Positions 44,477 to 55,916 of a stretch of 64,000 bases of DNA are shown here, piece by piece (positions within the stretch are counted from its first letter, which is position 1; every line of letters begins with the position of its first letter). Source of the DNA: Longimicrobiales bacterium (lineage in GTDB: Bacteria > Gemmatimonadota > Gemmatimonadetes > Longimicrobiales > Gaopeijiaceae); assembly GCA_951813395.1 (NCBI GenBank), contig OX638356.1:413340-477339 (forward strand), in the 5' to 3' direction. Under the pieces are notes generated by a model. It saw only the letters and a list, made by a program, of their open reading frames with translations. It was not told the DNA's origin and searched no databases. The position numbers and the translations under genes were made by a program.

Positions 44477-45262
44477 ATGAGAGTCGCCCTTTTCGTCACC
44501 TGCCTGGCCGACCATTACTTCGCGGAGGCTGCGGCCGACACCGTGCGCCTGTTGCGCCATCTCGGATGCGACGTCGCGTTCCCGGCCGATCAGACCTGCT
44601 GCGGCCAGCCCGCCTACAACGCGGGACGGCACCAGGAGGCGCGCCGGATGGCTCGGCATGCGCTCGACGTGTTCGGGGGTGCACCGGCCGATCCGACCGC
44701 CGCCGACGCGGTCGTGGTTCCCAGCGGCTCGTGCGCCACGATGGTCAAGAAGTTCTACCCGCGGCTTCTGGCCGGCGGTGCCGACACCTCGGCCCCGGCC
44801 GCGCTCGCGGACCGCACCTTCGACCTGGCCGAGTTCATCGTGCACCGGCTGGGCGTCACGAAGCTCGGCGATGGGCTGGCGGGCCGGCGCGTGGCCGTGC
44901 ACCAGGGCTGCCACGCGCTTCGTGAGTTGCGGCTGGAGACCGAACCGGCGGTGCTCCTCGAGGGAGCGGGCGCCGAGGTCGTGCCGTGGGAGGCCGAGGA
45001 GGAGTGCTGCGGCTTCGGCGGCCTGTTCTCTGTGAAGATGACGGCGGTATCCGCGGCCATGGCCGACCGAAAGCTCGACACCCTGCCCGAGGTCGACTGG
45101 GTGGTGTCCGGCGACGGCGGTTGCGTGCTGCACCTTGACGGGCGGAACCGGGCGCGCGGCACCGGCGTCGAGTTCGTGCACCTGGCGACGGCGCTGTGGC
45201 GTGGGGTGGCCGGAGATGCCCGCGTGCCCGCCGATGTGGCCCGGCCGGCCGGAGTCCGCTGA
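44477..45262 (+). CDS. lutA: LutA-like (Fe-S)-binding subunit of L-lactate oxidation
   Basis: 261 aa, full length for the family. Two CCG domains: DQTCCGQPAYNAGRHQEA near residue 36 and EEECCGFGGLFSVKM near residue 173, each supplying cysteines for a cluster, with SGSCATMVKKFYP between them and HQGCHALREL before the second. Cytoplasmic subunit of the LutABC complex that oxidises L-lactate to pyruvate in many bacteria. The lutB-like gene starts one base after its stop. Confidence 0.92.
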   Translation: MRVALFVTCLADHYFAEAAADTVRLLRHLGCDVAFPADQTCCGQPAYNAGRHQEARRMARHALDVFGGAPADPTAADAVVVPSGSCATMVKKFYPRLLAGGADTSAPAALADRTFDLAEFIVHRLGVTKLGDGLAGRRVAVHQGCHALRELRLETEPAVLLEGAGAEVVPWEAEEECCGFGGLFSVKMTAVSAAMADRKLDTLPEVDWVVSGDGGCVLHLDGRNRARGTGVEFVHLATALWRGVAGDARVPADVARPAGVR

Positions 45263-45263
45263 C

Positions 45264-46655
45264 ATGCACACCGGCATGAAGGACTACCCGTCGCGTTCGC
45301 GCGAGATCATCCGCGGCGATCCGGGCGTGCGGGAAGCGGTCACGGGCGCCACGATCGCCTTCGACCGTAAGCGGCTGCAGGGCTATGCCGAGGTCGACGC
45401 CGAGGCGTGGCGGCGCTGGGCCGAGGGCGTGAAGAGCCACACGCTGACCCACCTGGACGACTACCTGGCCGAAGCGGAGGCGCGGCTCGAGGCCAACGGC
45501 GCCGAGGTGCACTGGGCGGCGGACGCGGCCGAGGCCCGGCGGATCGTGACCGGGCTGGCGGACCGCTACTCGGTGACGAGCGTGGTCAAAGGCAAGAGCA
45601 TGGTCACCGAGGAGATCGACCTGAACCCGGCGCTGGAGGCCGAGGGGATCGAGGTCTACGAGACCGATCTGGGGGAATACATCCTGCAGCTCCTGGAGGA
45701 GCCGCCCAGCCACATCCTGGGACCCGCCATTCACAAGAGCCTGCAGCAGGTGCAGGAACTGTTCGCCGACCGCCTGGGCTTGGAGCCGGACGGCGATCCG
45801 GACACGCTCGCCAGCGCCGCGCGCCAGGTGCTGCGCGACGCCTTCATCCGCGCGGACATGGGGATCACGGGCGGCAACTTCCTGGTCGCCGAAACGGGCA
45901 CGGTGGCCCTGATCGAAAACGAGGGGAACATCCGCCTCACGACTTCGCTGCCGCGCGTGCACGTCGCGGTCGTCGGGATCGAGAAGCTCATTCCGCGCAT
46001 GACCGACCTCGCCGGCTTCCTCCAGCTCACCGCGCGCGCGGCGACCGGCCAGCCGATCGGCTGCTTCGTGTCGCTCGTACAGGGGCCGGCAACCCACCCC
46101 GACGATGACGGTCCCGAGGCGGTGCACGTCGTCCTCGTCGACAACGGCCGCACCGACGTCCTGGCTCACGAGCACGCCTGGGAGGCGCTGCGCTGTCTGC
46201 GCTGCGGCGCGTGCCTCAACGCGTGCCCGGTGTACCGCCAGACCGGCGGTCACGCCTATGGGCACGTCTATTCGGGGCCGATCGGTTCGGTGCTCGACCC
46301 GGGACTGGTGGGGCTGCACGAAGCCATGCCGCTACCCTTCGCGTCGTCGCTCTGCGGCGCCTGCGAGGACGCGTGCCCGGTGCGCATACCGATCCCGGAG
46401 CTGCTGCTTGAATGGCGCCGCGAGGCGCAGGAGGAGGGGCTCACCCCGTGGCGGGAACGCGCGGCGCTCAAGGGACTCGCGGGTGTGGCGACGCGCCCGG
46501 GGCTGTACAGGGTGGTGGGCAAGATCGGGTCGCGGCTGGGGGGAACGGGCATGGCGCGCGCGCTTCCGATGCTCGGCGAATGGGCGGCCGACCGCGCCCT
46601 GCCGAAGCCGAGCCGGCGGACATTTCGCGAGCTCTGGCGCGAGGGGATCGAGTGA
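45264..46655 (+). CDS. lutB: LutB-like iron-sulfur protein
   Basis: 463 aa. The LUD domain covers about residues 60-290 (VVKGKSMVTEEIDLNPALEA, GITGGNFLVAETGTVALIEN, RMTDLAGFLQLTARAATGQP). A ferredoxin-like pair of clusters follows: LRCGACLNACPVYRQTGGH and LCGACEDACPVRIPIPELL. Electron-transfer core of the LutABC lactate oxidase. Overlaps the lutC-like gene by 4 bp (GTGA). Confidence 0.94.
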   Translation: MHTGMKDYPSRSREIIRGDPGVREAVTGATIAFDRKRLQGYAEVDAEAWRRWAEGVKSHTLTHLDDYLAEAEARLEANGAEVHWAADAAEARRIVTGLADRYSVTSVVKGKSMVTEEIDLNPALEAEGIEVYETDLGEYILQLLEEPPSHILGPAIHKSLQQVQELFADRLGLEPDGDPDTLASAARQVLRDAFIRADMGITGGNFLVAETGTVALIENEGNIRLTTSLPRVHVAVVGIEKLIPRMTDLAGFLQLTARAATGQPIGCFVSLVQGPATHPDDDGPEAVHVVLVDNGRTDVLAHEHAWEALRCLRCGACLNACPVYRQTGGHAYGHVYSGPIGSVLDPGLVGLHEAMPLPFASSLCGACEDACPVRIPIPELLLEWRREAQEEGLTPWRERAALKGLAGVATRPGLYRVVGKIGSRLGGTGMARALPMLGEWAADRALPKPSRRTFRELWREGIE

Positions 46656-47239
46656 GCGCGGGCTCGCGGGAGCGGATCATGGCCCGGGTCGTGCGCGCGA
46701 CCGCGAGTCGACCACGGCTGCCGCATCCCGGCGCGCTGGCGGCGGCGGCCTCCACGGACGACGCGGTGGACGCTTTTGTGAAACGTTTCACAAGTAGCGG
46801 CGGCGAGGTGGCCACGGCCGATTCGGAGCGCCCGCCGGACGACTGGCTCACCGATTTCCTGCGGGGACTCGACCCCGAAGTGGTGGGTGTTGCCGTCGGT
46901 CCGGACGTGCCACGCGAGCTCAGCCCGGGGTTGCCGGAGGTGGCCGCTGCGCACGCGGGCGCTGGCATCTCACTGGCCTGGGCCGCCGTGGCAGACACGG
47001 GAAGCCTGGTCCTGCCGTCGACGGGAACGCGGGCCGTGCAGCTGCTGCCGCCGGTTCACGTGGTGTGGGTGCCGTCCGGACAGGTATTCGCCCGGCTGGA
47101 GGACGCGTTGCGCGAACTGGAACCGGAATTGCCCGCGACGGTCGGACTGCACTCCGGCCCCAGCAAGTCGGCGGACATCGGCCGCACCGTCGTGACGGGA
47201 GTGCACGGGCCGGGGCGCTGCGTGGCGGTGCTCAGCTGA
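46652..47239 (+). CDS. lutC: LutC-like LUD domain protein
   Basis: 195 aa from GTG 46652. ISLAWAAVADTGSLVLPS, PPVHVVWVPSGQVFARLEDAL and the C-terminal HSGPSKSADIGRTVVTGVHG are the LutC/YkgG signatures. Third subunit of the L-lactate oxidising complex, translated by coupling to lutB. No lactate permease or GntR-type regulator lies next to the operon. Confidence 0.92.
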   Translation: MSAGSRERIMARVVRATASRPRLPHPGALAAAASTDDAVDAFVKRFTSSGGEVATADSERPPDDWLTDFLRGLDPEVVGVAVGPDVPRELSPGLPEVAAAHAGAGISLAWAAVADTGSLVLPSTGTRAVQLLPPVHVVWVPSGQVFARLEDALRELEPELPATVGLHSGPSKSADIGRTVVTGVHGPGRCVAVLS

Positions 47240-47462: not shown

Positions 47463-49046
47463 TCAGTCCGCCACCCCGCCCACCCCCCTCAGCACCCGGA
47501 CGATCTCCGAACGGTCCACCTTACCCACGCCCGTCAGCGGCATCTCGTCGAACACGGCGATGTGCCTTGGATGCGCGTACGGCGGACCCTTCTCCAGCGT
47601 GTACGCCTTCAGCGCCCCCGCCGTCAGCGCGGACCCCGACGCGAGTTTCACCACGGCAGCCGGCACCGCCCCCTTCAGCGCATGCGGGACCGGCACGACC
47701 GCCGCATCCAGCACATCCGGATGCGAAAGGAGAAGGTCCTCGACCTCCTTGGGGTAGATGTTCTCGCCGCCCGAGTTGAACATGTCGTCGGTGCGGCCGC
47801 GGAAGTGGAAGAACCCGTCCCGGTCCCGGTGGAACAGGTCGCCGGTCGCGAGCCAGCCGTCCCGGATGCGCGCGGCGTTGACCTCGGGGAGGTTGTGGTA
47901 TCCGGGGGTGACGCCGGGATTGCGGACCCACAGCTCACCGTACTCGGGGTCCTCGACACCGTCCCGTATGAGCATGATTTCGCCCTCGGGCCAGGCCACG
48001 CCGCAGCTTCCCCTCGGCACGGCCCGTCCGTCGAGAGGGGGACCGAGCATGACGGGACCGCCTTCGGTGAGGCCGTAGCTCTCGCCGACCTCGACGCCGA
48101 ACGCCTGCTCCACCGCGTCCATCAGCTCCGGCTGTACCGGGGCGGAACCGAGCGTGACCCTCCGGAGTGCCGAGAAATCGAGTCTCCGGATGAGGTTCAT
48201 ATGGTCCATGGCAATGGCGAAAACGGCCGGGACCGCGCCCACCTGCGTGCATCGGTATTCGCTCAGCGCCTGCAGGAACGCCACCGGCTCGAACCCGGGC
48301 TGGATCACGACCGATCCCCCCGCTTGCAGAAGCGGCTTGACGGCGCCGGCCATCGCGTTCTTGTGATAGAGGGGAACGGCCGCGAGGGCACGGTCGCCGG
48401 GGTCGGCCGGCCAGTACTTCCGCAGGCAGCGCACCCACCAGATCTGTCCCTCGTGGTCGAGGACGACGCCCTTGGGCTTGCCGGTCGACCCCGAGGTGTA
48501 GGGCTGGAACGCGGGGTGGTTTGCGCCGAGGCGGGGCGGCTCGAAGTCGTCTGATGCTTGCGCCAGCGCACCCTCGTAGTCCAGCCAGCCGGTGCTTGCC
48601 CGCCCCTGGCCCGCGCTGCTGCCGCCGACCTCCCACCTCTTCTCGATCCGCAGCCGCTCGACCACCTCCGCCGAGCGCCCGGCGACCGCGGTCTCGACGA
48701 ACGCGGCCCCGCAGCCGGCGTCGGCCACGATGTGCGCGAGCGACTCGGCCGACAGCTTGAAGTTGAGGGGCACGGGCACGGCGCCGCAGCGCATCGCGCC
48801 GAACATGATTTCGATGAACTCGAAGCGGTTGCCGACGCTCAGCGCGACCCGGTCGCCCATTGCGACGCCCGCGTCCATGAGCAGGTTGGCCACGCGGTCC
48901 ATGCGCTCGTCGAGCTGCCTGTAGGTGACCTCGTGCGGCGTCGGGCGTGACAGGTCGATCAGCGCGGTGCGATCGGGGAACTCGGCGCGGGCTTGGCTCA
49001 GCCAGTAGCCGAGATTCCTGGTGCGGTTCCCGGTGCGGCTGCTCAC
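47463..49046 (-). CDS. AMP-dependent acyl-CoA synthetase/ligase
   Basis: 527 aa from GTG 49046, overlapping the 77-aa gene's stop (GTGA). Adenylate-forming motifs: YTSGSTGKPKGVVLD (P-loop-like A3), ESYGLTEGGPVM (A5), WLATGDLFHRDRDGFFHFRG (A7/A8) and the C-terminal GVGKVDRSE Lys. Activates a carboxylic acid to its CoA thioester at the cost of ATP. Last gene of a five-gene coupled operon that includes a thioesterase and an NRAMP-related transporter, so the substrate is probably an organic acid taken up by that transporter. Confidence 0.93.
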   Translation of the reverse strand: MSSRTGNRTRNLGYWLSQARAEFPDRTALIDLSRPTPHEVTYRQLDERMDRVANLLMDAGVAMGDRVALSVGNRFEFIEIMFGAMRCGAVPVPLNFKLSAESLAHIVADAGCGAAFVETAVAGRSAEVVERLRIEKRWEVGGSSAGQGRASTGWLDYEGALAQASDDFEPPRLGANHPAFQPYTSGSTGKPKGVVLDHEGQIWWVRCLRKYWPADPGDRALAAVPLYHKNAMAGAVKPLLQAGGSVVIQPGFEPVAFLQALSEYRCTQVGAVPAVFAIAMDHMNLIRRLDFSALRRVTLGSAPVQPELMDAVEQAFGVEVGESYGLTEGGPVMLGPPLDGRAVPRGSCGVAWPEGEIMLIRDGVEDPEYGELWVRNPGVTPGYHNLPEVNAARIRDGWLATGDLFHRDRDGFFHFRGRTDDMFNSGGENIYPKEVEDLLLSHPDVLDAAVVPVPHALKGAVPAAVVKLASGSALTAGALKAYTLEKGPPYAHPRHIAVFDEMPLTGVGKVDRSEIVRVLRGVGGVAD

Positions 49047-49276
49047 GCGTCGGGGTCTCCGCGCCCGGCGGGCAGAGCCAGTGCCGAGATGCAGATCGCC
49101 GTGGCCACGCCGCCGATGACGATCCAGATCCAGCCGTCGCCCGTGCGCATGACTGACGCCACGCCCCACAGAGCCATTGCATTGCCCGCGAGGTTGACGA
49201 TCAGCCCCCAGACGCGCCCCGACCATGGCCCGATGCGTCGCTCGAGGAACCGGTGCAGCACACCTCCCGCGCGCAT
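49043..49276 (-). CDS. Small membrane protein, 77 aa
   Basis: From ATG 49276, which shares one base with the transporter's stop (TGATG), to a TGA inside the ligase start. Two hydrophobic helices: VWGLIVNLAGNAMALWGVA and IWIVIGGVATAICISALAL, with an Arg-rich N-terminus (RFLERRIGPWSGR). Perfect overlaps on both sides are the main evidence that it is real. Possibly an accessory subunit of the NRAMP-related transporter. No family known to me. Confidence 0.7.
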   Translation of the reverse strand: MRAGGVLHRFLERRIGPWSGRVWGLIVNLAGNAMALWGVASVMRTGDGWIWIVIGGVATAICISALALPAGRGDPDA

Positions 49277-50667
49277 CACCACCACCCCAGGCGGTTGAAG
49301 ACGTAGGTGATCGCGATCGCGTTGAGCAGCGTCACCTGCAACAGGATGCCGAGGTTCCACAGGTACGATTTGCTGCGGTCGGCACCCAGCACCTTGCGGT
49401 CGTTCAGCAGCAGGTACATCGACCACCCGACGACGTTGTTCGCGAGCGACAGGAACGCCGCGATGAAGATGACCAGCCAGACCGGGCGCGCGTTCCAGGC
49501 GGCGAGGAATGCGATCTGCGGCAGGAGCGCGCTGAGCTTCCAGCGCCACGACGCGGTGTCGGGCTCCCATCCGAAGGCCTCGTGGATGGCCATCGCGCCG
49601 GCCAGGCTCATGGCCACCGTGGTCGTGATGGGGACCGCGAGGAACCCCACGTAGAAGAGGACTTGCGACCACGTGGGACCGAGCAACGGCATGAGCGCCG
49701 CCGCCAGCTCGGGCGCCGACTCCGGTGTGATCCCCTGGGGGAAGAGGGTCGCGGCGAAGACGCCGATCACCAGGAAGTTGACGACCACGAACGGGATGAA
49801 GAGTCCGGCGAACAGGTCGAAGCGGGCCAGCGATTCGTGGTTGCGGCCCCAGCCCCGGCCCAGGCCCGCGTAGTGGAAGAAGACCCAGTCCATCACGCCG
49901 ACGGCCGCGGCGGACGACGCGATGAAGAGGTCCAGCCCCTCCCCTCCCCCCGGCAGCCAGGGCACGAAGGCGCCGCGGGCCGCCGCGCCCCAGTCGACGC
50001 CCACGACCACGAGGACGGCGCCGAAGGCGACGATCATCAGCGCGATCGCGCCCTTCATCACGGCCTCGACCAATCGTGTCCCGGTCCCGCCGCGGCGTCC
50101 GTAGCTGAGGATCAGCCAGCTGGTGACCCCCACGTAGAGGACCCAGTTGTACTCGGCCGGGAAGGAGAAGCCGGCAAACGGCGCGAGCGACTCGATCAGG
50201 TGGGTGCCGAGGGCGACCTGGCCGAAGTTGAAGATCACGGCGACCGCCGCCGTGCCGACCAGCGCGGTCAGCAGCGAGCCGATGAGCCAGGAATGGCGGC
50301 GATTCTGGACCTGGATGACGCGGAAGCCCCCCTTGCAGGTGAAGCGGGCCATCGCGGCCATCATGAAGAGGCCCAGGCCGCACGCGAGCCAGATCAGCCA
50401 CAGGGTCCGATAGCCGAACGTGGCGCCGGACAGCATGGAGGAGGTGAGGGTGCCGGCTCCGAGCGTGAGTGCGGCCCCCATGAAACCCGGACCGGCCAGA
50501 CGCGCATAACCGCCGATCCGCCGGTGCGCCGGGGCCCTGGCCAGCGCCGCCAGCCGGTCGGCCTCGGCATCCAGCACTTCCGCCGGAATGCGCTGGGCGA
50601 TGGGATAGCTGGACGGGTCGCCGCCCGGTGCGCCGGGCTGGCTGCCCCCGTCGGCCGGCCCGCTCAC
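49276..50667 (-). CDS. NRAMP-related transporter lacking the metal motifs (copy 1)
   Basis: 463 aa from GTG 50667, overlapping the MDR stop. About 11 helices in a LeuT-like fold. The first helix reads GPGFMGAALTLGAGTLTSSM, in which the DPGN motif of true NRAMP Mn/Fe transporters is replaced by a Gly-Ala-Gly-Thr stretch, and no MPH motif is seen in the sixth helix. Metal transport is therefore doubtful. The operon context (thioesterase, reductase, CoA ligase) suggests an organic solute. Confidence 0.85.
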   Translation of the reverse strand: MSGPADGGSQPGAPGGDPSSYPIAQRIPAEVLDAEADRLAALARAPAHRRIGGYARLAGPGFMGAALTLGAGTLTSSMLSGATFGYRTLWLIWLACGLGLFMMAAMARFTCKGGFRVIQVQNRRHSWLIGSLLTALVGTAAVAVIFNFGQVALGTHLIESLAPFAGFSFPAEYNWVLYVGVTSWLILSYGRRGGTGTRLVEAVMKGAIALMIVAFGAVLVVVGVDWGAAARGAFVPWLPGGGEGLDLFIASSAAAVGVMDWVFFHYAGLGRGWGRNHESLARFDLFAGLFIPFVVVNFLVIGVFAATLFPQGITPESAPELAAALMPLLGPTWSQVLFYVGFLAVPITTTVAMSLAGAMAIHEAFGWEPDTASWRWKLSALLPQIAFLAAWNARPVWLVIFIAAFLSLANNVVGWSMYLLLNDRKVLGADRSKSYLWNLGILLQVTLLNAIAITYVFNRLGWW

Positions 50668-51674
50668 AGGGTCAGTATCGATTTGCCGAACACCTTGCGC
50701 CTCATGAGTTCGCCCATTGCCGTCCGGACATCCTCGATCGGCCTGACGGCGTGGATGACCGGCTCCAGTTCGCCCTCGGCGACCATCGCCAGCAGGCGGA
50801 CCAGCCCTGCGCGGCTCCAGCCGTCCGACCCGATGATCGTCTGTTCGAAGCTCCAGATGTAGCGGATGTCGGTGGACGGGTCGTAGCCGGCCGTGGCGCC
50901 ACAGGTGACCATGCGGCCCTGGAAGCGCAGCACCTTGAGGCTGGCCGCCCAGGTGGCTCCGCCGATGTAGTTGATCACCACGTCCACGCCGCCGGATTCC
51001 GGGTCGTGGTAGCGGGGGCGCCCGGTGATCTCGCGCACGAGCCGGACCAGTTCATTGGAACGCGAGGGAAGGACGTGGTCGGCACCGATGGCCCGCAGGC
51101 GGTCCAGCTTCCCCGAGGAGCCCCCGGTCGCGATCACGCGCGCATCCAGCCGCTTGCAGAGCTGAACGCAGCAGGTGCCGACGCCGCCGGTCGCGCCGAG
51201 GATCAGCACGGTCTCGCCCGCCTGCACGCGTGCGCGATCCTCGACCATGCGCAGCGATGTCCCGTACGCCACTGGAAGGGCGGCGGCATGCTCGAACGAG
51301 ACGCCGTCGGGGATCGGCACCAGGCTGCCCAGGGGAACCGCAAGGTATTCGGCCGCCGCCCCGGGCGCCTTCTCGCCGAGCATGCCGCGCCCCTCGATGA
51401 TCGGGTCGATCATCACCCGGTCCCCGACCTGCCGGCCGGCCTGATCCGTCCCGGGACCGAATCCTGCCACCTCGCCGGCGGCGTCGCCGCACGGGGTCAT
51501 GGGGAAGGGGATGCGCAGTCCCGTGGTGCCTGCCAGCATCATGGGGTCGAAGCCGTTGAGGGCGCAGGCGCGAATGCGAATGAGCGCCTCGCCGGGGGCG
51601 GGCTCGGGGGTGGGCACGTCGGCCAGGTAGAGCTGGTCGACGGTGCCGTGACGGTCGTACAGGACGGCCTTCAC
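50664..51674 (-). CDS. MDR superfamily quinone reductase-like oxidoreductase
   Basis: 336 aa from ATG 51674. MKAVLYDRHGTVDQLYLADV, the GDAAGEVAGFGPG turn, coenzyme loop LILGATGGVGTCCVQLCKRL and C-terminal MRRKVFGKSILTL follow the zinc-free NADPH:quinone/enoyl reductase branch. It reduces activated double bonds or enoyl thioesters. Starts 6 bp after the thioesterase stop. Confidence 0.9.
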   Translation of the reverse strand: MKAVLYDRHGTVDQLYLADVPTPEPAPGEALIRIRACALNGFDPMMLAGTTGLRIPFPMTPCGDAAGEVAGFGPGTDQAGRQVGDRVMIDPIIEGRGMLGEKAPGAAAEYLAVPLGSLVPIPDGVSFEHAAALPVAYGTSLRMVEDRARVQAGETVLILGATGGVGTCCVQLCKRLDARVIATGGSSGKLDRLRAIGADHVLPSRSNELVRLVREITGRPRYHDPESGGVDVVINYIGGATWAASLKVLRFQGRMVTCGATAGYDPSTDIRYIWSFEQTIIGSDGWSRAGLVRLLAMVAEGELEPVIHAVRPIEDVRTAMGELMRRKVFGKSILTL

Positions 51675-51680
51675 CGTCGC

Positions 51681-52103
51681 CTAGCCGACCAGCGAGGAGT
51701 ACGTGCCGCGCCCCACCGCGCAGAGACGGCCCTGGTCGTCGTGCACGTCGACGTCGGCGACCGAGATGGTGCGGCCGCCTCGCCGCAGCCGGGCCGTGGC
51801 CAGCAGGTACGGACCGGTGCAGGGGCGCAGGTAGTCGACCCGTAGCGAAATGGTGGGGACGCCGCCTCCCGCCCGGACCGCCACGACCATGTCGCCGGCG
51901 ATGTCGATGAGCGACGCTACGGGGCCGCCGTGATAGATCGTGCCGTCCCCTCGCGTGAGTTCGGCCTGCTTGGGCATTCCGAGCACGACGGTTTCGCCGT
52001 CCTCGCTCATGTCCTCGAGCGTGATTCCAAGCGCGATAATGGCTTCCGAACCCGCCAGCACGGACTCGATGAGGTTCCAGGCTTCCGTGTTTTTCGGTGA
52101 CAT
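51681..52103 (-). CDS. PaaI-type hotdog thioesterase
   Basis: 140 aa from ATG 52103. Hotdog core with YHGGPVASLIDIAGDMVVAV (the HGG-x5-D catalytic segment), SLRVDYLRPC and VADVDVHDDQGRLCAVGRGT. Hydrolyses acyl-CoA thioesters in the cytoplasm. First gene of the thioesterase/reductase/transporter/ligase operon. A 131-bp divergent gap separates it from the second S9 peptidase. The frame is open upstream, but only this ATG gives the usual family length. Confidence 0.9.
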   Translation of the reverse strand: MSPKNTEAWNLIESVLAGSEAIIALGITLEDMSEDGETVVLGMPKQAELTRGDGTIYHGGPVASLIDIAGDMVVAVRAGGGVPTISLRVDYLRPCTGPYLLATARLRRGGRTISVADVDVHDDQGRLCAVGRGTYSSLVG

Positions 52104-52234: not shown

Positions 52235-54379
52235 ATGCGCACCGCCGCCCGCGTTCCGTCCCCGGCCGCCGCAGCGGCAGTCACCGCCCGCTCGGCTGCC
52301 ACCGCGCTGTCGCTTGTCGCGTCCGCCCTTTTCGCCGGCGCCGCAATCACCACCCTTTCGTCCCCTTCGCTGGCCGCCCAGGCCGCCGACCGGCTCACCG
52401 TCGACCGGCTCACCGTCGACCGGTACCTCGACTGGGAGCGCGTCAGCGACCCCCGGATCTCGCCGGACGGCTCCCGCATCGTCTACACGAAAAGCTGGGT
52501 GAACAAGCTGGAAGACCGGTGGGACGCCAGCCTTCACATGATGAACGCCGACGGGTCGCGCAAACGCTTCCTGGTGGACGGTTCGGGGGCCCGCTGGTCT
52601 CCGGACGGCACGCGCATCCTCTTCACCGCCGCGGACGACGGCGGCGGGACCCAGATCTTCGTCCGCTGGATGGACGAGGAGGGCGCCGTCACGCGGGTGA
52701 CCCGGGTCCAGGGAACGCCCATGAACGCCATGTGGTCGCCCGACGGCACGATGATCTCGTTCACCATGGACACGCCCGGCGAGCTGCCGAGCGACTGGTC
52801 GATCGACCTTCCGGCCGCGCCCGCGGGCGCCACCTGGACCGAGACCCCGCGCATCGTCGAGAACATGCACTTCCGCCGGGACTTCACGGGATTCACGGAC
52901 CCGGCCTACCATCACCTCTTCGTCGTCCCCTCCACGGGAGGCACGGCGCGCCAGCTTACGCACGGCAAATGGCACGTCGGAGCCCGCTTCATCGCCATCT
53001 ACTGGGGCGCCGGCTACGACTGGACGCCCGACGGCAGCACCATCGTCTTCGACGGGCTGATGAGGGAGGACTGGGACAAGCGCTACTTCGAGTCGGCGAT
53101 CAACGCCGTGGACGTGGCCACCGGCGAGATGCGCGAGATCACATCGACGCGCGGCCTCTGGACCAGCCCGTCGGTCTCGCCGGACGGCAGCACCATCGCC
53201 TTCACGGGCTACGAGTGGTCGCCGCAGACCTATCATGTCGGCGAGATCCACACGATCGGGATCGACGGCAGCGGCATGCGCAAGCTCACGCCCGACCTGG
53301 ACCGGGACATCGGGGGCATCATATGGGACGATGACGGCACCCGCTTCTACTTCGCCGTCCAGGACCGGGGCTCATCCAACGTCTATTCCGCCACGACCGG
53401 AGGCGACCTGCGGCAGCTCACCGACGGCGTCCAGATGCTCTCGCTTACGTCGGCGGCGGGCGGGACCGCAGTCGGGGTTCGCTCGGCTCCGCAGGCTCCC
53501 GGCGACGTGGTCCGGTTCGGCCTGGAGGTCGGCGCGGATCCCGTGCAGCTCACACGGGTGAACGAGGATGTTCTGGAGGGCGTCGTCCTCGGAGACCTCG
53601 AAGAGATCTGGTACGAGTCCACGGAAGGGGCACGGGTACAGGGATGGGTCATCAAGCCGCCCGGCTTCGACCCCTCGCGGCGCTACCCCCTCATACTGGA
53701 AATCCACGGCGGCCCCCACGGCATGTACAACGTGGGCTTCAACTGGATGTTCCAGAACTTCGCCGCCAACGACTTCGTGGTCCTCTACACGAACCCGCGC
53801 GGCTCGACCGGCTATGGAACGGACTTCGGCAACGCGATAGACGACCAGTACCCCGGCCCGCGCGACCTCGCGGACCTGCTCCACGGCGTCGACGAGGTCG
53901 TCGGCGGGGGATACATCGACACCGACAGGATGTACGTGGGCGGCTGCTCCGGAGGGGGCGCGCTCTCGAGCTGGGTGATCGGCCACGACAACCGCTTCGC
54001 GGCCGCAGCCGTGCGGTGTCCGGTCATCAACTGGATGTCGTTCGCCGGCACCGCCGACGTGGCCATGTGGGGCTATCGTCGCTTCCGCGAGCTGCCCTGG
54101 GAGAACCCGGACAAGTGGCTGCGCCACTCGTCGCTCATGTACGCGGGCAACGTGACGACCCCCACCCTGCTTCTGACCGGGGAACTCGACCTGCGCACGC
54201 CGATGTCGCAGACCGAGGAGTACTACCAGGCGCTCAAGATGGTCGGCGTTCCCACCGCCATCATCCGCTTCAACAACGAGTACCACGGCACCGGGACCCG
54301 GCCGTCCAACTTCATGCGAACGCAGCTGTACATGCGGAAGTGGTATGACCGCTGGGTCGGCAAGGTGCCGGTGAGCTGA
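52235..54379 (+). CDS. S9 family prolyl-oligopeptidase-like peptidase (copy 2)
   Basis: 714 aa from ATG 52235, with AAGGAG 10 bases upstream. Signal peptide to LAAQ. The mature end has a duplicated DRLTV unit (15-bp tandem repeat). Propeller repeats with SPDG turns are followed by the hydrolase domain: EIHGGPHGMYNVGF, NPRGSTGYGTDF, nucleophile Ser572 (GGCSGGG), GELDLRTP and EYHGTG. Exported serine exopeptidase. Highly similar to 25500-27563 in the catalytic domain, a clear paralogue, but stands alone rather than in a hydrolase operon. Confidence 0.93.
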   Translation: MRTAARVPSPAAAAAVTARSAATALSLVASALFAGAAITTLSSPSLAAQAADRLTVDRLTVDRYLDWERVSDPRISPDGSRIVYTKSWVNKLEDRWDASLHMMNADGSRKRFLVDGSGARWSPDGTRILFTAADDGGGTQIFVRWMDEEGAVTRVTRVQGTPMNAMWSPDGTMISFTMDTPGELPSDWSIDLPAAPAGATWTETPRIVENMHFRRDFTGFTDPAYHHLFVVPSTGGTARQLTHGKWHVGARFIAIYWGAGYDWTPDGSTIVFDGLMREDWDKRYFESAINAVDVATGEMREITSTRGLWTSPSVSPDGSTIAFTGYEWSPQTYHVGEIHTIGIDGSGMRKLTPDLDRDIGGIIWDDDGTRFYFAVQDRGSSNVYSATTGGDLRQLTDGVQMLSLTSAAGGTAVGVRSAPQAPGDVVRFGLEVGADPVQLTRVNEDVLEGVVLGDLEEIWYESTEGARVQGWVIKPPGFDPSRRYPLILEIHGGPHGMYNVGFNWMFQNFAANDFVVLYTNPRGSTGYGTDFGNAIDDQYPGPRDLADLLHGVDEVVGGGYIDTDRMYVGGCSGGGALSSWVIGHDNRFAAAAVRCPVINWMSFAGTADVAMWGYRRFRELPWENPDKWLRHSSLMYAGNVTTPTLLLTGELDLRTPMSQTEEYYQALKMVGVPTAIIRFNNEYHGTGTRPSNFMRTQLYMRKWYDRWVGKVPVS

Positions 54380-54431: not shown

Positions 54432-55916
54432 GTGAATCCGCCGCGCGAGGCCCGCTCGGGACTGAAGGCCTTCGAAAAGGCCGAACTGCCTGCGCCGCCG
54501 AAGCCGAAGGGGCTGTCATGGCTCGGCGTCGTGGGGCCCGGCGTCATCGTGCTGGGCGCGTCGATCGGCAGCGGCGAATTCCTGCTCGGACCCGCGGCGT
54601 TCGTGCAGTACGGGCTGGTGCTGCTTTGGGTGACCCTGGTGGCCGCGTTCTTCCAGACGGTCTTCAACACCGAGCTGATGCGCTGGACGATCGCCACCGG
54701 CGAGCCCGTCGTGACGGGGTTCATGCGCACGAAGCCATGGTCCCAGTTCTGGGCCTTGGTGTACGCGCTGCTCTACTTCCTGCAGGTGGGCTGGCCCGGC
54801 TGGGCGGGTGCGGCCGCGGGCGCGATCTTCTTCCTGATCTTCCGCGACCTCGCGGGACCCGGACAGGAGCACATCGTCTACTGGATCGGCGTGGGCACGT
54901 TCGTGCTGTGCGTGGGGATCCTGCTCTTCGGCAAGCGGATCGAACGGACGCTCGAGCTGCTGAACTGGGTGCTGGTGTCCGCGATCATCGGCGGGTTCCT
55001 GATTCTGGCGTTGATCTTCGTGGCGCCCGGCACCTGGGTCTCGGCCGCGGCGGGGCTCGTCGGCTACGACACCGGCACCGGCGGCTTCCGCTTCATCCCG
55101 CAAGGGGTGGACTGGTTCCTGATCGGCGCATTCGCGGCGTACTCGGGCGCGGGCGGCGTCGTCAATCTGACCCTGTCCAACTGGGCCCGCGACAAGGGGT
55201 ACGGCATGGGCAAGCGCGCCGGGTACATTCCGGCGGCGGTGGGCGGTGAACGGACCAGGCTCGCACCCACCGGCTACACCTTCGACACCACCTCGGACGC
55301 CATGGCCCGGTGGCGCGGATGGTGGCGCATCGTGCGCGCGGACCAATGGATCGTCTACTTCGTCGGGGCGATGCTCGGGATGGTGCTCCCGGCGGTGATC
55401 TACGTCACGTTCATCGAGGCGGGCACCGACATCCGCGGCCTTTCGGTCGCGGCCACACTGGCCAACGCGATCGCGAGCGAGAAGGGGGCCATATTCGGCG
55501 GAATCATCGCCATGATGGCCGTCTGGGTGCTCTTCAAGACCCAGCTCGACATCCTCGAAGGGATGACCCGGGCGATCACCGACATCCTCTGGACCGGCTC
55601 GCGCACCGTGCGTCGCTGGCGCGGCGGCGATGTCCGGTTCGTGTACTACACGGTGCTGGGCGCGCTGTGCGTGTGGGGGATCATCGCGCTGGGGCTGGCG
55701 CAGCCGATCATTCTGCTCCAGCTCGGCGCCAACATGGCCGGGGTCGTCTTCGTGATCTCGTCGCTGCACCTGCTGTACATCAACACGCGTTTTCTGCCCG
55801 AGGAAGTCCGGCCACCGATGTGGCGCAGGGTCTCGCTGGTGCTGATGTCCGTCTTCTACGGGGCCTTTGTGACCCTATGGCTACGCGGGGTGATCGGGGG
55901 ATGGCTGGGCGGGTAG
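54432..55916 (+). CDS. NRAMP-related transporter lacking the metal motifs (copy 2)
   Basis: 494 aa from GTG 54432 with GGAGG five bases upstream. The first helix reads VVGPGVIVLGASIGSGEFLL, so again DPGN is absent and a Gly-Ser-Gly segment takes its place. Around eleven helices follow, with IGAFAAYSGAGGVVNLTLSN in place of the helix that normally carries MPH. It lies 52 bp after the S9 peptidase on the same strand and might import its products (inference). Paralogue of 49276-50667. Confidence 0.85.
   Translation: MNPPREARSGLKAFEKAELPAPPKPKGLSWLGVVGPGVIVLGASIGSGEFLLGPAAFVQYGLVLLWVTLVAAFFQTVFNTELMRWTIATGEPVVTGFMRTKPWSQFWALVYALLYFLQVGWPGWAGAAAGAIFFLIFRDLAGPGQEHIVYWIGVGTFVLCVGILLFGKRIERTLELLNWVLVSAIIGGFLILALIFVAPGTWVSAAAGLVGYDTGTGGFRFIPQGVDWFLIGAFAAYSGAGGVVNLTLSNWARDKGYGMGKRAGYIPAAVGGERTRLAPTGYTFDTTSDAMARWRGWWRIVRADQWIVYFVGAMLGMVLPAVIYVTFIEAGTDIRGLSVAATLANAIASEKGAIFGGIIAMMAVWVLFKTQLDILEGMTRAITDILWTGSRTVRRWRGGDVRFVYYTVLGALCVWGIIALGLAQPIILLQLGANMAGVVFVISSLHLLYINTRFLPEEVRPPMWRRVSLVLMSVFYGAFVTLWLRGVIGGWLGG

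Follow-up and report, generated by a model that had tools for sequence, protein, structure and literature searches.

What does an Nramp-related carrier transport when its gene lies in an operon with enzymes of coenzyme A (CoA) chemistry? The question is raised by five genes in a 64,000-nucleotide stretch of DNA, hereafter the window, from a Longimicrobiales bacterium of the Gemmatimonadota (assembly GCA_951813395.1, contig OX638356.1, positions 413,340 to 477,339 of the forward strand). An earlier note on this DNA had taken the genes for an uptake-and-activation module for an organic acid. In the present analysis, the operon is most readily explained as a two-component Nramp-related system for uptake and activation of an organic acid, a reading that is drawn from sequence comparison and is given a probability of about 0.47. 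The window's genome measures 4.09 Mb in a single contig. Its closest named-record matches are Gemmatimonadota bins, some of them labelled Candidatus Palauibacter; bins of this type we take to be those of sponge symbionts.

The operon, the carrier and the small membrane protein

The operon consists of the following genes, given in order of transcription.

51681-52103, minus strand: hot-dog (4HBT, PaaI-like) thioesterase, start codon ATG, 140 amino acids, first gene of the operon
50664-51674, minus strand: MDR-family (zinc-type/quinone-oxidoreductase-like) reductase, start codon GTG, 336 amino acids
49276-50667, minus strand: Nramp-related carrier with a non-canonical central site, start codon GTG, 463 amino acids
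49043-49276, minus strand: small membrane protein with two transmembrane helices (TM), obligate genomic partner of the carrier, start codon ATG, 77 amino acids
47463-49046, minus strand: adenosine monophosphate (AMP)-forming acyl/aryl-CoA ligase, start codon GTG, 527 amino acids, last gene

All five open reading frames (ORFs) are in frame on the minus strand from 52103 to 47463, with the same limits as in the earlier note, and the five tightly joined genes described there were recovered at their exact coordinates. Reductase and carrier overlap by 4 bp, carrier and small gene by 1 bp (TGATG), small gene and ligase by 4 bp (GTGA). The wording "fully overlapped" therefore holds for these three junctions; for the first, between thioesterase and reductase, it is slightly too strong, a 6-bp gap being present. 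Purifying selection acts on all five genes among close relatives. For the small gene, the ratio of nonsynonymous to synonymous substitution rates (dN/dS) is 0.20-0.32, which marks the 77-amino-acid ORF as a real gene.

The carrier matches PF01566 (Nramp) with 121.9 bits, against a Pfam gathering cut-off of 29.8. A Foldseek search with its AlphaFold2 (AF2) model returned DraNramp and EleNRMT as top matches (probability 1.00), and EleNRMT, a Mg2+/Mn2+ transporter, is also the best sequence match among solved structures. Judged by both sequence and model, the protein is a member of the Nramp superfamily with a LeuT fold. Scores for the NCBIfam MntH/nramp models were far below the cut-offs (59.4 of 430, 37.2 of 272.5 and 36.5 of 50 bits). 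Two elements of the central site were located by motif alignments.

50449-50460, minus strand: GAGT motif of TM1, residues 70 to 73, replacing DPGN
49885-49890, minus strand: D260-W261 of TM6, in the place of Pro-His of the MPH motif or shifted from it by one residue

All 13 carriers compared, from at least six classes, have G70, A71, G72 and T73 unchanged, and GAGT aligns gap-free to DPGN of BfraNramp and human Nramp2 and to DAGG of EleNRMT. Within the TM6 stretch V258-M259-D260-W261, all 13 carriers share V258, D260 and W261; M259 varies, with G in L040 and V in L046. The TM6 register is off by one residue between tools, D260 standing opposite the His of MPH in the HMMER alignment and opposite the Pro in the MAFFT alignment, and neither register gives a conserved Met or any His at the MPH site. 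For TM3, the alignments disagree on the residue matching E134 of DraNramp; no candidate is acidic, and the nearly invariant E159 lies close by.

Ion-site signatures have been defined as DxxN-AxxM for NRAMP, DxxN-AxxT for NRAT and DxxG-TxxA/T for NRMT (PMC8806188). In the motif alignments, TM1 of the window's carrier reads GxxT and its site matches none of the three. The TM1 Asp, common to all three metal-carrying groups, is replaced by Gly, and the TM1 Asn by Thr. Canonical SLC11/MntH/Nramp proteins thus share PF01566 and the LeuT fold with this carrier but differ from it in DPGN and MPH, both absent here, and in its distance from the NCBIfam cut-offs; EleNRMT shares the fold and is closest in sequence among solved structures, but NRMT proteins keep the TM1 Asp. 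The carrier had been described earlier as lacking metal motifs, and the loss of the ligand side chains of NRAMP, NRAT and NRMT agrees with that description.

For the 77-amino-acid protein of the window, no Pfam or NCBIfam match was obtained. Its AF2 model is a helical hairpin (helices 20-45 and 49-66) with a predicted local distance difference test (pLDDT) value of 73, and residues R21, W23, N28, N32, G38 and P69 are invariant. No match to DUF485, DUF4212 or DUF997 was found in any of 14 members at E values up to 10, by which membership in these known companion families was ruled out. Weak matches to Peptidase_U4 (SpoIIGA) in some members (best E 0.001) were read as membrane-helix similarity. 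What had been noted as a tiny membrane protein is accordingly a conserved two-helix protein that falls in no known Pfam family; with it, a new family of small proteins is defined.

Spread and linkage of carrier, partner and enzymes

Profiles of the small protein and of the carrier were searched separately in the same 395 Gemmatimonadota genomes. Per genome, scoring was confined to some of the first-look candidates (mostly 14-41), so misses are possible. Patterns for the contig scan were taken from the window's own carrier and favour near relatives; the number of lineages is hence a lower bound. Five of the contigs (L040, L041, L042, L076 and L077) are short.

Of the 395 genomes, 21 hold the small protein, and exactly these 21 also hold the carrier, with 714-874 bits. 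A 22nd carrier match, in genome G743, scored 254 bits, has 29% identity to the window's carrier and is not accompanied by the small protein. In sister genera, remote relatives of the Nramp type (24-33% identity) likewise have other neighbours and no small partner. Beyond the Gemmatimonadota, the carrier turned up in Thermoanaerobaculia, two Acidobacteriota bins, a Parvularculaceae bin, another alphaproteobacterium, Aminicenantes and Luminiphilus syltensis, a list that takes in both Alpha- and Gammaproteobacteria; each of these genomes holds one copy of the small protein. Its gene lies directly 3' of the carrier in every lineage but Luminiphilus, where the two genes share a strand but the small one lies 2.6 kb upstream, beyond an amidohydrolase gene and a BioF-like gene. 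Under the same limit on candidates, no small protein was detected in 288 other Alphaproteobacteria, 139 further genomes of the Luminiphilus family, 61 of the Parvularculaceae family or 395 of the phylum to which L042 belongs. The small protein is rare and patchy in occurrence and, at genome level, an obligate partner of the carrier. The sister carrier of G743 (L112, 1501-2811) reads LGAGS in TM1 and VNMTF in TM6 and is a useful outgroup.

In the window's genus, the carrier occurs at 90% identity or more in 10 of 23 genomes with the full set in the same order; in one of the ten, no thioesterase is visible at a contig end. The set recurs in a second genus, of another family, with the same order in most members. 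The conservation of the operon, which the earlier note had proposed to check, thus extends from synteny within the genus to recurrence across phyla. Carriers are not sorted by phylum: that of the gemmatimonadote G586 has 73% identity to the Thermoanaerobaculia copy vs 62% to the window's, a pattern suggestive of transfer across phyla.

The presence of a CoA ligase and a thioesterase in one operon, as noted earlier, was confirmed by Pfam. The thioesterase matches PF03061 (4HBT; E 3e-12, 47 bits, cut-off 20.6) and TIGR00369 (71.1 bits, cut-off 36.6), placing it in the PaaI-type hot-dog family; its closest solved chains are 3e29 and PaaI. The ligase carries AMP-binding (PF00501, 264.8 bits) and AMP-binding_C (PF13193, 62.2 bits) domains, typical of an AMP-forming acyl-CoA ligase. 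Its closest solved chains are the fatty-acyl-/feruloyl-CoA synthetases 8weu and 8wev, and it reaches the cut-off of none of the 25 NCBIfam models listed. The cargo suggested by these nearest structures was treated as a lead only, no family cut-off being reached. The reductase matches PF00107/PF08240 (ADH_zinc_N/ADH_N) and, by its sequence, certainly belongs to the MDR superfamily. It falls below the cut-offs of the quinone_pig3, crotonyl-CoA reductase and acryloyl-CoA reductase models, with weaker similarity only, and scores 113 of 378.55 and 75.8 of 440 bits for the enoyl-CoA reductases Ccr and AcuI; a role as enoyl-CoA reductase is possible.

Reductase, thioesterase and ligase are all encoded near the carrier in L040, L043, L044 and L077. 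In L077 they form a run of their own, in the order thioesterase-reductase-ligase and divergent from the carrier and small gene, so the linkage survives rearrangement. Thioesterase and reductase genes, again divergent, extend up to the contig end in L076. In Luminiphilus (L046/L080), the ligase and the reductase lie about 5 kb and about 6 kb from the carrier, and in L042 the thioesterase is the only one of the three enzymes. The genes make up two modules, the carrier with its small partner and the enzymes, which mostly stay linked through rearrangement.

When distant orthologues were compared with the window's genome, the operon copy was the best match for both the reductase (388 vs 139 bits) and the ligase (252 vs 115 bits). 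The operon reductase has 53% identity to its Parvularculaceae orthologue; the next own-genome match has 36%. Correlations between carrier and partner distances were calculated over 7-11 distant lineages; permutations did as well in 1 of 5000 cases for the small protein, 22 of 5000 for the thioesterase, 36 of 5000 for the reductase and 59 of 5000 for the ligase. The notion that the genes act as a functional unit is supported by the cross-phylum recurrence and by the best own-genome matches of reductase and ligase. Chance adjacency of unrelated common genes is scarcely credible: acyl-CoA ligases and MDR reductases are indeed numerous in the genome (11 and 8 own-genome matches, respectively), but the same orthologues stand together across phyla, also in rearranged orders.

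In several lineages, a TonB receptor, an amidohydrolase, an esterase or a peptidase is encoded near the carrier. The neighbours include amidohydrolase, beta-lactamase-fold, PAF-acetylhydrolase-like, S9, M28 and (by eye) CocE-like proteins, as well as TonB receptors. They differ between lineages and serve as supporting evidence only. The hydrolases appear to be secreted, as judged by eye from their N-termini, and together with the TonB receptors they agree with a substrate being released outside the cell and then taken up.

Cargo and direction of transport

If the operon is an organic-acid uptake and activation system, the carrier and the two-helix protein would together form an inner-membrane importer, with a central site (GAGT in TM1, Asp-Trp in TM6) rebuilt for an organic molecule instead of a divalent metal. 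Hydrolases such as those near several copies would release the acid outside the cell. Inside, the AMP-forming ligase would convert it to a CoA thioester and so trap it; the MDR reductase would reduce a pathway intermediate, most likely at an unsaturated or carbonyl group, and the PaaI-type thioesterase would free CoA from dead-end or non-cognate thioesters. A wider proposal is that an Nramp-fold subfamily gave up metals, became an organic-acid importer with the 77-amino-acid protein as obligatory subunit, and was spread between phyla as a cassette with ligase, reductase and thioesterase; this is put forward tentatively.

A comparable arrangement is found in acs-yjcH-actP, where a LeuT-fold carrier, a small membrane protein and a CoA synthetase for acetate uptake and activation are encoded in one operon. 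The window's operon follows the same logic but differs in several respects: ActP is an SSS-family symporter, the window's small protein belongs to none of the companion families searched, and a reductase and a thioesterase are added. To our knowledge, no Nramp-type carrier has so far been found to depend on a small membrane subunit, and this one would be the first.

By analogy, the nearest functional precedent is PxpT, an Nramp-family protein of pxpABC 5-oxoprolinase operons that is required for growth on 5-oxoproline (PMC13274462). Compared by description and not by alignment, PxpT and YcsG resemble the present carrier in that their genes accompany those of cytoplasmic enzymes acting on an organic acid; they differ in that the window's operon holds 4HBT, MDR and AMP-ligase genes, no pxpABC, and a dedicated two-TM partner that is always present. 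Nramp-related proteins without metal motifs are a recognised, diverse and mostly uncharacterised group that includes "G-motif" groups (PMC12873925). The earlier claim of a new type of transporter complex can be kept only in part: the motif-less carrier group and an organic-acid precedent, PxpT, were already known. Organic cargo of Nramp-family proteins is disputed, PxpT being linked to 5-oxoproline use and YcsG and MumT being described as Mn importers. The subfamily found here offers a clean test, with metal-ligand side chains gone, an invariant site, activating enzymes adjacent and a partner protein that can be deleted, and one bearer is a named species, Luminiphilus syltensis, rather than a metagenome bin.

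Some of the results weigh against an organic-acid importer. The AF2 model of the carrier is of moderate quality (pLDDT 67), and a cation, a proton or an amine are possible ligands of D260, which sits at or beside the TM6 His position. Near the carriers of G586, L041 and L045, no orthologue of ligase, reductase or thioesterase was found in the stretch seen, partly on short contigs, yet all three have the small protein; the cargo thus need not always go to the ligase. Between distant lineages, moreover, identity is 32-40% for the ligase vs 58-72% for the carrier, so the cargo may vary. Two further Nramp-family proteins from metabolic operons, MumT of a urea-carboxylase operon (PMC5050338) and YcsG/MntG of a 5-oxoprolinase operon (PMC10448178), have been reported as Mn importers. 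They favour, along with the Nramp fold, the invariant acidic D260 and the closeness to EleNRMT, an import of Mn2+ or Mg2+ needed by the pathway, with the small protein tuning the carrier. The reports on these two proteins keep this reading in contention, though it is unlikely: the TM1 Asp and Asn have become Gly and Thr, TM6 keeps no conserved Met or His, and the enzyme families of the operon have no special need for Mn. AMP-forming ligases use Mg-ATP. The earlier note would have taken as contrary any orthologous carriers outside such operons that had been shown to move metals; of the orthologues without visible enzymes, none is known to have been assayed.

A nitrogenous cargo such as an amino acid, a lactam or a small peptide product, with the enzymes acting later in the pathway and not on the imported molecule itself as the ligase's free acid, is unlikely. 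It would account for the S9 and M28 peptidases and the amidohydrolases beside the carrier in several lineages. Amino-acid transport is common among LeuT-fold carriers, the acid handled by PxpT is a lactam (PMC13274462), and D260 could pair with an amine. Against this, the constant enzymes are CoA ligase, reductase and thioesterase, and no aminotransferase, deaminase or lactamase is common to the neighbourhoods of the lineages. Export by the carrier of an acid freed by the thioesterase, for product secretion or detoxification, is improbable. In its favour, an acid would be freed by the thioesterase, encoded by the operon's first gene, and the direction of secondary carriers is not readable from sequence; the ligase, however, would work against the thioesterase, and an inward direction is indicated by the TonB receptors and hydrolases close to several copies.

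Neighbouring genes and further Nramp-related proteins

Upstream of the operon and divergent from it lies a peptidase gene.

52235-54379, plus strand: S9 (prolyl oligopeptidase-type) peptidase/hydrolase, PF00326, E 2e-39

This gene is retained next to the operon in the window's genus and was not seen at the second-genus locus (L079). An S9 protein is also encoded after the carrier in L042. The divergent peptidase possibly supplies the substrate.

Just past the S9 gene, at 54432-55916 on the plus strand, a second and different Nramp-related carrier is encoded, with GSGE in TM1. It matches NF037982 with 188 bits, has no PF01566 match and is 86-97% identical across the window's genus; it too was not seen at L079. 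On the other side, at 44477-47239 on the plus strand, lutABC-like (lactate-utilisation) ORFs, named by eye, point at the 3' end of the operon and are retained beside it in several relatives.

The other PF01566 gene of the genome (L085, 6794-11012; C1:2949793-2954011) has a second AMP-forming ligase gene at a distance of 1 kb. A second operon was ruled out, the two genes being on opposite strands.

The island around the Luminiphilus syltensis carrier (L080, 2141-17560) holds a TonB-receptor-like gene, two Glyoxalase_3 proteins, an AraC-type regulator, two amidohydrolases, two CocE-like hydrolases (by eye) and a BioF-like enzyme. In L091 (7482-15393, minus strand), an Nramp-related carrier with 26% identity to the window's follows an outer-membrane uptake pair resembling the SusC/SusD type (by eye) on the same strand, an arrangement that hints at Nramp-related proteins serving organic uptake.

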